DNA from: Algorimicrobium algoritergicola
GTDB lineage: Bacteria; Bacteroidota; Bacteroidia; Flavobacteriales; Flavobacteriaceae
DNA length: 64,000 nt
Reading direction: 5' to 3'
Assembly: GCF_008086165.1 (NCBI RefSeq)
Contig: NZ_VSKL01000005.1
Span: 62,001 to 126,000, forward strand
Each line of letters opens with the position of its first letter. The first letter of the stretch is position 1. The notes under the pieces are model-generated. The model worked only from the letters and a program-made list of their open reading frames with translations, had not been told where the DNA came from and did not search any database. Both the position numbers and the translations under genes were made by a program. This document shows, one piece after another, positions 47,109-63,739 of this stretch.

Positions 47109-47314
47109 GCAATAAAAGTTAACGGTTTTGTATATGGCTCGTAGCGTGCAAATTAGCGATAACTTTTCGATTAAGCACGAGCAGATTTTTTTAATTTTCT
47201 TATTATCTTTTCTTTTCAATAAGCCAAATTAAAAAATTTGGCGGACTAGCAAATATGCCTTAACTTCGATTAATCAACTGATTAGCTATGAATTATATGC
47301 GGTGTTAGTGACAG
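47109..47314 (-). repeat. attC-like element B
   Basis: About 206 bp filling the gap between the hamB stop (47315) and the DnaJ gene start. Outer arms: GTTAACGGTTTTGTATATGG (from 47118) pairs imperfectly with the right arm (47282-47314) containing ATTATATGCGGTGTTAGTG. A perfect central hairpin GCCAAATT-AAAA-AATTTGGC lies at 47223-47242. Confidence 0.6.
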
Positions 47315-50325: not shown

Positions 50326-50468
50326 TAATTGCACATAAAGTGTTTGTGTATGATTAGTTGCGTGTTTTAAGCACTAAAATTAGCAAATAAAATAAAGATA
50401 GAAAGTCTGCAAGGACTTTCGTAAATTGATTAAAACCAAGCAATTAATAATACAAAGTGTTGCCCACA
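50326..50468 (-). repeat. attC-like element C
   Basis: Between the HEPN gene stop (50473) and hamA. Arms GTGTTTGTGTATGATTAGTT (50340-50361) and GCAATTAATAATACAAAGTG (50440-50465) pair imperfectly; a perfect central hairpin GAAAGTC-TGCAAG-GACTTTC is at 50401-50420. The outer end GTTGCCCACA (50459-50468) is the reverse complement of TGTGGGCAAC at 52789-52798. Confidence 0.65.
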
Positions 50469-61330: not shown

Positions 61331-61828
61331 TTAGGTTGGTATTAGTACTGACGTAACCCTTTTTAATAGTTCTAGGTATTCGTTGAAGTCACTTTCTTGA
61401 ATCAAAGATGGTCTATATTGTTCTGGAGGGAAATGAGAAAGCGCATTTCTTATCTTTCCCCATTCAAGCAATTCATTATAATCCTCTGGCTTTATTTTTC
61501 TCGAAACTTTCCTAGTGTAATCAAGTTTTGATTTTAATCCATGCATGTTTTTATTAGGAAAAAACTCCTGCTTTAGAATGCCCTCAAATATTCCTTGTAA
61601 ACGCCAAATTCCAAAATGCCAAATAAATAAATTGTCGACATAAGCATAGTAATTTAAGTCCGCAATTGCTTCAGAGTCAATTTTTTGAATTTCCAGTTCT
61701 TTAGCTTTAATTTCAATTTGTTTATTCCTGTCCTTAATTATTTCATTGATTAGCCTCTTTGTATAGTCATAGTCTGTAATAGATAAGCCGTATATATGCC
61801 AATTAGTGTTCTTCAGTTCTTCTCTCAC
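61331..61828 (-). CDS. HEPN-like small protein
   Basis: 165 residues, mostly helical, starting at GTG 61828 (no ATG upstream before a stop). The segment KIRNALSHFP contains R127-x4-H132, the HEPN RNase signature, preceded by a long helix (about 20-60) and an YAYVDNLFIWHFGIWRLQGIFEG helix. No family name is claimed. It lies next to the type I restriction operon and immediately before a group II intron remnant; the N-terminus might be shortened by that insertion. Toxin or abortive-infection role is inferred. Confidence 0.55.
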   Translation of the reverse strand: MREELKNTNWHIYGLSITDYDYTKRLINEIIKDRNKQIEIKAKELEIQKIDSEAIADLNYYAYVDNLFIWHFGIWRLQGIFEGILKQEFFPNKNMHGLKSKLDYTRKVSRKIKPEDYNELLEWGKIRNALSHFPPEQYRPSLIQESDFNEYLELLKRVTSVLIPT

Positions 61829-62039
61829 TACATGTCTTATTTTTTAAAAGTTGTGTTAAAATATTTTATATACATAGTTCGAAGCCATCGTTATCCTAGT
61901 TTTTTTACACTTTCGACATCAAAATCTTCTTCTGATAATTGGGGAAGGACTGAACGCAATCCTTTCGGAAATTAGATAAGGAACGGAAATATCTGTAGCC
62001 TTTTCTTAAAGTACGAAATAGTTCCAATTGTTGTAAAGA

Positions 62040-62141
62040 GCGATTGGAAAGATGGGTTGCGAACCGCCGTATACGAGACCCGTACGTACGGTGGTGTGAG
62101 AGGCGCACCGTGGGCTTATTACTCACGGCCGTCTACTCGAT
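62040..62141 (+). mobile_element. 3' end of a group II intron (remnant)
   Basis: Domain V is recognisable: ACCGCCGTA (from 62063) pairs with TACGGTGGT (to 62095) around ACGAGACCCGT, followed by domain VI-like CCGTG / CTCACGG stem (about 62107-62128) and the intron end CTACTCGAT at 62133-62141. No intron reverse transcriptase precedes it within the 330 bases after 61829, so only the tail remains. The bases from 61829 to 62040 are of uncertain origin. Confidence 0.75.
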
Positions 62142-62153
62142 TGTAAACAGTGC
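62142..62153. other. Cassette boundary motif next to the intron end
   Basis: TGTAAACAGTGC directly after the intron 3' end is the reverse complement (11 of 12) of GCATTGTTTACA at 63592-63603, the other end of the PIN-like gene unit. The intron therefore sits in or against the terminal motif of that cassette-like unit. Confidence 0.55.
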
Positions 62154-62159
62154 TTTCTT

Positions 62160-63575
62160 TCAGTTAATGGCAATCAATATACTCAATTTTCCAGAACCTT
62201 TATTGGTCTCTATTTTAAATGTATAACTCTTAAAATCCCATTCTCGTCCATTCCAATTATTGGATTGTATTAAATCTTTTTCTTTTTCCCATTCAAACTT
62301 TTCCTTGAAATATTTATCAGCTCCGAATATTTCTACAGCATTATTAGTTACTAACTCATATTCTCTTATAAAAGTGAAACTGGAATAGTTCTTCGTTTTT
62401 CTGTAAAAGTATAAATAGCTTTTACCATCTTCTTGAATGTTATCAATTCTATTGAAAAAGCCTAAATAATTATGAAAGGGTTTAATTGTATTGGTATTTC
62501 GATTTATATCGATTGATTTATAAGAATCCACAATAAGACCATTTTTTAAATCATTTAATAATAGTTCAGAAAAAGAATTTTGGTCTTTTTCAACTTTTTC
62601 CACAATGAAGTCAAATGAACTTATAAAATCATCAACGTGCATAACTTTTGTGTCAATTTCTAAAAGTTTGTAAAGTGCTCTTGTTTTTTTAAGAAAACCA
62701 GCATCATCAGATACTACACAATCGCAGTAAGCTCCATAATAACTATGAATTCCATCATTAAGCATATTATTAAATCTTACGCTTTTTGATGGTTCTTTGC
62801 TGATGCCCAATAAGTCAAGTGTAAAATATGCGTTAGTGAAAAAATCATATTTTGATATTTCCTTGTCGCCATTTGGATTAAGGTTACTATTCACATATTC
62901 AATAAATGTTTTTTGAAGATATGAATCTTTTAAGTCTTCGTTAAAATTGATTTCGTCATAATCGATTGTGAATTTTCCGTTGTTGAAATGCTTGTCCGTT
63001 ACGTTTCTTAAACCTTTATATACAGTTTTATCTTCCTGCATATTTTTAAGCATACCCATAAAATGTTCACTCCATTGCATTAAAGACATAGGTTCTTGTC
63101 CAAATGGTATTAATTTGGTTAAAGGGTCAGTGATTTCAGAATCAACATCTTTTAATTCGGGAAAATTGAAATCCAATTTAGTATCAGTAAATATTTTCTT
63201 TGCAGATTCAATTTTCTCTTTATCTTCAACACTTAAATCGCTTGTGTCGAAATTTAGAATGCTTGAAAAGTCAATTTCGTCAGAATCTTCTTCGACATCG
63301 GCAAATGCTTCAAGTGGTCTTGCTAAATAACAAGATGTCTTCTTCTCGATTGCGTGATATGATAAGTAGTTATCATTAACAATAGTATCAATAAATTCTA
63401 ATTCGGAATATTTAATATTTGTTTTGTCATTTTTTAAATCAAGAAGATGTGCGTGTGAATAACAAAACAAGCTGGCTTTTTGAGTTCTAATTTTATCTAA
63501 TAATTTGACATATTGACTCTTTTCTCTTTTAAAAAGATGACTGAAAATTTGTTTGTCAAAATATATTCTTACCAT
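62160..63575 (-). CDS. PIN-like domain protein, 471 residues
   Basis: Function unknown. The N-terminus VRIYFDKQIFSHL (Asp7), CYSHAHLLDLKND (His43, Asp46) and the C-terminal block DGIHSYYGAYCDCVVSDDAGFLKKT (Asp274, Asp285, Asp290, Asp291) follow the spacing of PIN-like ribonuclease families, with a long insertion (about 60-260). The last ~140 residues form another, possibly beta-rich domain. It is enclosed by element A at its start and a matching boundary motif plus group II intron at its end, as expected for a gene cassette. The PIN assignment is by motif pattern only. Confidence 0.55.
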   Translation of the reverse strand: MVRIYFDKQIFSHLFKREKSQYVKLLDKIRTQKASLFCYSHAHLLDLKNDKTNIKYSELEFIDTIVNDNYLSYHAIEKKTSCYLARPLEAFADVEEDSDEIDFSSILNFDTSDLSVEDKEKIESAKKIFTDTKLDFNFPELKDVDSEITDPLTKLIPFGQEPMSLMQWSEHFMGMLKNMQEDKTVYKGLRNVTDKHFNNGKFTIDYDEINFNEDLKDSYLQKTFIEYVNSNLNPNGDKEISKYDFFTNAYFTLDLLGISKEPSKSVRFNNMLNDGIHSYYGAYCDCVVSDDAGFLKKTRALYKLLEIDTKVMHVDDFISSFDFIVEKVEKDQNSFSELLLNDLKNGLIVDSYKSIDINRNTNTIKPFHNYLGFFNRIDNIQEDGKSYLYFYRKTKNYSSFTFIREYELVTNNAVEIFGADKYFKEKFEWEKEKDLIQSNNWNGREWDFKSYTFKIETNKGSGKLSILIAIN

Positions 63576-63591: not shown

Positions 63592-63731
63592 GCATTGTTT
63601 ACAACGGTTTCGTATAAGAATAGTTGCGGTTTTGTACGCGAGGATTTTCCGAAGGAAAATCAGACGTAACAAAATTGCAACGACCTTTGGTTAAGCACTA
63701 ATGTAGCAATTATTTTTATACGGTGTTGGGC
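63592..63731 (-). repeat. attC-like element A
   Basis: 140 bp between the stop of the 77-aa+ gene (63740) and the PIN-like gene start. Arms: GTTTACAACGGTTTCGTATA (63597-63627) and ATTTTTATACGGTGTTGGGC (63706-63731) pair imperfectly; central perfect hairpin GATTTTCC-GAA-GGAAAATC at 63643-63661. On the minus strand the outer end reads GCCCAAC, a fit to the attC R'' consensus RYYYAAC. A shared TTAAGCAC motif occurs in elements A, B and C. Confidence 0.65.
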
Positions 63732-63739
63732 GTAGTTTT

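Follow-up and report, generated by a model that had tools for sequence, protein, structure and literature searches.

The window, meaning the whole 64,000-nucleotide stretch of the Algorimicrobium algoritergicola genome analysed here (contig NZ_VSKL01000005.1, positions 62,001 to 126,000), contains towards its right-hand end the remnant of a group II intron, a cassette-borne open reading frame (ORF) on the opposite strand and an intact attC-like site, with further attC-like sites to the left. The features are as follows, in window coordinates; R2 is a site model described below.

47117-47311, + strand: further attC-like site (R2, 53.0 bits, E 9.5e-9)
50333-50466, + strand (G000:C25:112333-112466): possible weaker attC-like site (R2, 51.6 bits, E 4.0e-7, from the genome search)
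61931-62141, + strand: 5'-truncated ORF-less group IIC intron copy, the 3' 211 nt, recognised by homology to ORF-less relatives
62062-62141, + strand: intron domains V and VI (RF00029, 39.7 bits, E 5.3e-6)
62135, + strand: putative branch A, position inferred only, from a consensus quoted in PMC7923331
62142-62154, + strand: 3' exon, being the right (R'') box of the interrupted attC-like site, TGTAAACAGTGCT; complement at 63593-63603
62160-63575, - strand: cassette-borne ORF of 471 aa, opposite to the intron, from the open reading frame list
63593-63603, + strand: left box of the next site, complementary to the intron 3' exon (10/11) and followed by AACG
63599-63732, + strand: intact attC-like site with AAC/GTT boxes, spacer, 16-pair L stem and variable loop

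The 471-aa ORF had no Pfam match at E 0.001, and neither had a second cassette-sized ORF on the minus strand at 61331-61828. The weaker site at 50333-50466 was absent from the R2 search of the window, and its AAC box reads AAA. The strand shown of the intact site corresponds to the attC bottom strand.

The RF00029 (Intron_gpII) model matched the plus strand over its full length (model positions 1-77 of 77) up to 62141, in agreement with the original prediction that domains V and VI of a group II intron end there. The match lies 0.3 bits below the gathering score of 40, so that a gathering-score Rfam scan of the whole window returned tRNA only. A CGC triad, the mark of class IIC (PMC7923331), could be read off the RF00029 alignment at 62065-62067 in domain V, and the classification of domains V/VI, proposed with the prediction as a check, thus comes out as IIC. 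The intron 3' end, ACTCGAT (62135-62141), agrees with the consensus AXX(X)XRAY given in the same source. TGTAAACAGTGC is joined directly to the intron end at 62141, and TGTAAACA occupies 62142-62149, immediately after it.

That only the tail of the intron remains was predicted correctly; its start, however, had been set at 62040, and homology begins at about 61931. The ORF-less intron at locus L139 shares 90% identity with 61931-62071 (141 nt), and other ORF-less relatives share 69-84% over most of the stretch. Upstream of about 61931 no match to any fetched intron was found, left flank included, and the copy therefore represents the last 211 nt of an intron. Full-length short relatives, which lack an ORF, measure 541-761 nt, and the window copy is of this short type because its homology spans the place where an ORF would sit. 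No attC-like hairpin was detected directly upstream of the tail by eye, by the custom scan or by the site models; the tail is a dead fossil, and the hairpin of its site is gone. A search for a second tail in this genome gave none, the only other match having E 0.39. Tail-related DNA occurs in 41 of 299 family genomes, this one among them, and 29 of the 68 other tail matches end at query bases 107-111, equivalent to window 62141-62145, the rest ending earlier or extending up to query base 126. Three further 5'-truncated copies (L052, L056 and L058) have a good 3' junction and, by eye, no attC hairpin at the break. Aborted reverse transcription is not favoured as the cause of truncation, because the window copy and these three all lack an attC hairpin beside the break; with four cases only, this is not decisive.

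The two end boxes of a cassette have to be complementary to each other. The window conforms to this rule: the intron 3' exon pairs with the downstream box over the 10/11 positions listed above (9/10 in a separate box test), which bears out the prediction that the tail is joined to a cassette-end site. The prediction had also taken TGTAAACA for a boundary motif. It does adjoin the intron, but as a word it shows no enrichment across the window (2 occurrences against 5.74 expected), and a shared or general boundary motif is ruled out. It is instead a private, cassette-specific box, inverted at 63593-63603, and it matters because the cassette carries its complement at the opposite end. Among the relatives, the intron 3' exon was complementary at 8/10 positions or more to the downstream box preceding AACG in 16/51 loci, the window among them, against 30/2550 mismatched pairs; the 51 are those of 54 loci with a readable 3' junction that remained after L098, L122 and L130 were dropped. 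It is very unlikely that the tail was brought to TGTAAACA by a later rearrangement and is uninformative on targeting. The truncation and the unmatched left flank would permit it, but truncation affected the 5' end, the GAT/TG form seen across the family is present at the 3' junction, and the box matches the next site of its own cassette.

The same complementarity can be read between neighbouring sites. The six bases beside GTT and those beside AAC were perfectly complementary in 35/56 adjacent pairs versus 44/4154 between-locus controls, and matched at 5/6 or better in 41/56 versus 231/4154, leaving 15 of the 56 below that level. This comparison used 72 of 73 site rows (one overlap was removed), less four more with no clear AAC or GTT. 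Each of the 13 loci in which sites matched at E <= 0.01 has all its sites on one strand.

Sites were sought with two models and a custom scan. Model R1, with collapsed stems, favours short sites and aligned to the window site in its right part alone, pairing it with a different left arm; R2, made from the 120-125-nt class, was used in its place, with a short calibration. R2 scored the intact window site at 97.9 bits (E 2.8e-18), this site being itself among the 23 sequences behind the model, and the custom scan scored it at 17.0, with no match in three shuffles of the window. Elsewhere, three shuffles per sequence also gave no custom-scan match, except for one in a single L149 shuffle. At E <= 0.01, R2 found sites in 20/20 other family genomes chosen by hand, 1 to 136 in each. 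The window's own genome (G000) has 62 R2 matches, 58 of them at E < 1e-3, many near contig ends, and on contigs C1, C2, C5, C6, C23 and C28 the clusters lie near the low-numbered ends. This suggests that the assembly breaks at arrays; within an assembly that seems broken in this way, neither a reverse transcriptase (RT) of the intron clade nor a recombinase closer than 32% to the array type was found.

For the site alignment, the window's site was combined with 22 sites targeted by introns. Only sequences with AACG and a paired arm were admitted, which makes AACG invariant by construction and tilts the share of paired cells towards the model. Covariation with its slide control is safer evidence than either: stem covariation reached 0.485, compared with a mean of 0.159 after shuffling and 0.09-0.14 in slid versions, and 0.571 against 0.124 shuffled in the long site class. 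According to PMC2727003, attC sites have a spacer, extrahelical bases and a variable end, with G after AAC in most. The sites described here fulfil the description in their AAC/GTT boxes, the G after AAC, the spacer, the L stem and the variable terminal structure. In place of extrahelical bases on the L'' arm, two conserved G.T oppositions were observed in the L stem (19/23 and 22/23 sequences), a difference from the attC of integron arrays and of CALIN; the custom scan ranked G.T below Watson-Crick pairs. The two oppositions stand five positions apart in alignment A3 and could be a counterpart of the extrahelical bases. R2 matched none of ten whole plasmid records (Proteobacteria and Bacillota, 2.26 Mb). 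These records include class 1 integrons, hence the site models are blind to canonical attC, and since class 1 attC go unmatched, the Bacteroidota sites are not canonical attC.

Full-length relatives, which the original prediction had called for, were then found in number. In a first set, 28 complete introns were delimited, 13 short (541-761 nt, with no room for an ORF) and 15 long (1842-1915 nt), the ORF being broken in some of the long ones; the 5' exon ended in GT in 27/28 and the 3' exon started with T in 28/28. Over distinct 3' junctions, T came first in 55/57. The larger set holds 88 distinct full-length introns at 84 loci; 59 of these introns come from 57 of 79 loci found with an RT profile; the other 22 of the 79 gave no complete intron by the profiles used. 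Copies were told apart by their flanks, so the Polaribacter filamentus genome is counted several times. The 5' exon ends in GT in 86/88 (exactly TTGT in 25/88), and the 3' exon starts with TG or TA in 83/88. The relatives insert at one exact point, GT^T.

In most cases the 5' exon is an attC-like hairpin. An AACG hairpin scoring at least 9 formed the 5' exon in 61/86 introns, the testable ones whose 5' flank exceeds 100 nt, compared with 37/2571 GTT[AG] positions drawn at random from those loci; at a stricter cut-off of 12.5 the counts were 48/86 and 22/2571. The GT^T position on attC-like hairpins lets the tail support the attC nature of the window's elements, as the original prediction had envisaged for one of its two outcomes. 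Since no 5' exon is left in the window copy, its own target is inferred from the 3' exon. At L237 (142-2011) an intron stands directly behind the 3' end of another intron copy.

The intron could also be of the ordinary IIC kind and insert behind any hairpin, the hairpins being mere terminators or intergenic repeats without a cassette system. Terminators are the main targets of IIC introns according to PMC4424553, and 25/86 introns fail the AACG-hairpin test, near misses among them; of these failures, L068 and L070 sit on other, non-attC hairpins and the flanks of L039 and L206 look terminator-like by eye. We nevertheless consider this quite unlikely, for the insertion junction falls within the AAC/GTT box, a length of 120-125 nt is shared by 45 of the 61 passing hairpins, a G stands next to AAC in 61/66 hairpins scoring at least 9 when the test demanded AAC only, the boxes are complementary across whole genes, and same-strand arrays adjoin a recombinase.

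The class of the intron was taken from the RTs of intact relatives. The RT of L060 reached 316 bits with GsI-IIC and 297 with 7uim, the Eubacterium rectale IIC RT, compared with 119 against LtrA (IIA) and 106 against 6me0 (a IIB maturase). Homology to the GsI-IIC and E. rectale proteins extends over about 410 residues, and the L060 RT exceeds the NCBIfam TIGR04416 cut-off. On this evidence we assign the intron to class IIC, an assignment that comes from relatives since the window copy has no RT. Group IIB introns beside attC are reported for Halorhodospira and Tanatar-5 lake in PMC7923331, which gives some precedent for a IIB intron in an attC array; such an identity is scarcely credible here, against the 316/297 bits to IIC proteins, the CGC triad, and introns of 1.8-1.9 kb with an RT of 423-454 aa in the seven relatives listed by ORF. 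Class IIB is ruled out by the RT scores.

A profile of nine such RTs was searched against genomes, and the best 80 of 427 relatives correspond to 79 loci, of which all but one carry names that we took as Bacteroidota. L232, a clade member, is labelled as a Bacillota metagenome-assembled genome, which could be a binning error or a transfer. In a tree of 69 proteins, 54 rows form one clade (100/100), which sits with the remaining IIC rows and away from five plasmid RTs whose class is unverified. GsI-IIC and the E. rectale IIC intron lie outside this clade, and L078 (Salmonella) and L079 (Klebsiella), the IIC-attC introns of class 1 integrons, fall with GsI-IIC and other IIC introns (98/95). A second tree, of 43 rows, places the Bacteroidota clade as sister to the remaining IIC rows taken together; constraining it to join L078/L079 worsens the fit by 19 log units (p-AU 0.014).

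Accordingly, membership of the known IIC-attC lineage of intron-encoded proteins was not met, only two class 1 reference rows being in the trees and long branches being present. The prediction had offered two outcomes. The intron is class IIC and its relatives do use attC-like GT^T targets, but it does not join the known IIC-attC lineage; the RT clade stands apart from the two sampled class 1 introns and thus represents a separate targeting lineage, which is the new targeting case foreseen as the other outcome. Horizontal transfer of a known IIC-attC member into Bacteroidota remains unlikely: class, insertion point and orientation are shared with those introns, but the 100/100 clade excludes L078/L079 and the joint clade is rejected, within the limits of two canonical rows and long branches.

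The insertion point is the same in both lineages. Known IIC-attC introns have the consensus TTGT/T, located within the R'' box on the bottom strand of attC (PMC7923331), and L078 and L079 show the junction of the Bacteroidota introns, AATTGT followed by GTACGCCC on the 5' side and CCCGAT/TA on the 3' side. The Bacteroidota relatives also insert at GT in the R'' box, and the window has a fitting 3' exon and an antisense ORF, so the insertion rule, including the orientation antisense to cassette genes, is met. Of the class IIC feature of short IBS1/IBS3 matches with an upstream hairpin replacing IBS2, the hairpin and NTGT/T were seen in relatives, and the EBS1/EBS3 partners were not located. The differences from the class 1 introns are the separate RT clade, the failure of the Bacteroidota site models on their attC sites, the ORF-less subfamily found in the Bacteroidota set, and the lack of a canonical IntI in the family searched.

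ORF-less copies make up 16/88 full-length introns. In Formosa sp. L2A11, long copies are present at L207 and L212, and L207 has an ORF-less one in addition. Such introns are rare in bacteria, and as a rule their genome holds a related RT, with one exception known (PMC4424553). They resemble the present copies in having no RT inside; here, a search with the L060 RT at 1e-10 over 15 genomes gave no match in six that hold short copies (G203, G212, G019, G236, G174 and G001). The G203 copy lacks its 3' end, G236 is a single contig, and several of the ORF-less copies are complete. ORF-less copies in genomes without a detected RT raise the question of how such copies spread.

The recombinase beside the arrays is not a canonical IntI. 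None of 299 family genomes passed the cut-off of TIGR02249, the IntI model; the search lacks a positive control, as 0/14 control genomes pass either. Seventeen regions were fetched, L147-L155 for known sites or for sites with a recombinase, and L156-L163 for a strong sub-threshold recombinase match, of which L157, L158 and L160-L162 come from genomes already known for introns and L162 contains one. Sites were present in 5/8 of the recombinase-picked regions (L157-L160 and L162) and absent from L156, L161 and L163. In 11/11 loci with both, the recombinase was observed past the 3' end of the site strand and on the opposite strand (the sites of L148 came from the custom scan alone, and the L149 recombinase frame has a stop), and the coordinates in G014, G113 and G068 give the same layout. 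L147-L159, G014, G113 and G068 include long same-strand attC-like arrays with a tyrosine recombinase at one fixed end.

The recombinase ORFs are mostly 354-392 aa (range 305-437, with one fragment of 218). Three of them scored 218-235 bits against NF040815, named 'site-specific tyrosine recombinase/integron integrase' (cut-off 220; 2/3 pass), and 203-212 bits against TIGR02249 (cut-off 265). Residues 197-227 and 238-248 of IntI1, which make up most of the 197-248 stretch where the IntI-specific domain lies, are missing in at least 90% of 13 aligned recombinases. The IntI-specific domain is described as necessary, and required by IntegronFinder, in PMC9668308, and the arrays do not fulfil this condition for an IntI-bearing integron. 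The array recombinase lacks the domain, judged from its sequence, and its activity on these sites is inferred. The arrays share with integron arrays and CALIN the AAC(G)/GTT boxes, spacer, L stem and variable end, the same-strand arrangement and the box complementarity within a cassette; they differ in the stem G.T oppositions, in the absence of genomes passing the IntI cut-off and in a recombinase without the IntI insertion.

We therefore read the tail, with high confidence, as the remnant of an ORF-less IIC intron from a second attC-targeting IIC lineage, lodged in a Bacteroidota integron-like system whose function is inferred. A broader statement is likely, on less firm ground: that Bacteroidota have their own integron system, with about 100 or more sites in some genomes and a recombinase without the IntI domain, alongside a separately evolved, partly ORF-less and Bacteroidota-wide IIC lineage that targets attC. 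If this targeting evolved separately, the introns would be an independent witness that the sites fold as attC, and introns at cassette-separating hairpins point to a little-recognised gene-capture system of this kind.

IIC introns in attC are already known. Integrons are listed for Bacteroidota (PMC8618304 and PMC9668308), intI is listed for the Bacteroidetes/Chlorobi group (PMC2426708), and in the survey PMC9024848 only one complete integron, that of Salinibacter ruber, is named for Bacteroidetes proper. In the open-access literature we found no account of a IIC lineage in Bacteroidota that targets attC-like sites, nor of integrons with an IntI-domain-less recombinase in Flavobacteriaceae, which is weak evidence of absence, subscription papers and preprints lying mostly outside it. 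Should the recombinase work on these sites, a large cassette system has been overlooked; and now that a second IIC lineage is seen to use that insertion point, the idea that IIC introns in general land on folded attC can be put to the test.

Sequence evidence covers the relatives' class, their exact junction, the hairpin targeted, the box complementarity by cassette, the arrays and the recombinase beside them; the route of mobility can only be inferred. A ribonucleoprotein of intron RNA and the IIC maturase/RT would read the folded, single-stranded attC bottom-strand hairpin, presumably an attC of the Bacteroidota integron-like system, together with a very short exon match, NTGT/T. Reverse splicing would take place at GT^T, and the RT, being En-minus, would copy the intron from a replication primer; ORF-less copies would depend on an RT supplied in trans, which is likewise an inference. 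Insertion separates the R'' box from its hairpin and should for that reason disable the site for recombination, an inactivation that is inferred as well. In the window, a later deletion, inferred as the cause of the truncation, may have removed some two thirds of the intron along with the hairpin, so that the fossil is all that is left. In L160 and L162, sites end in GTGTGTGTGCC, which is the start of the intron within the box and is consistent with intron insertion.
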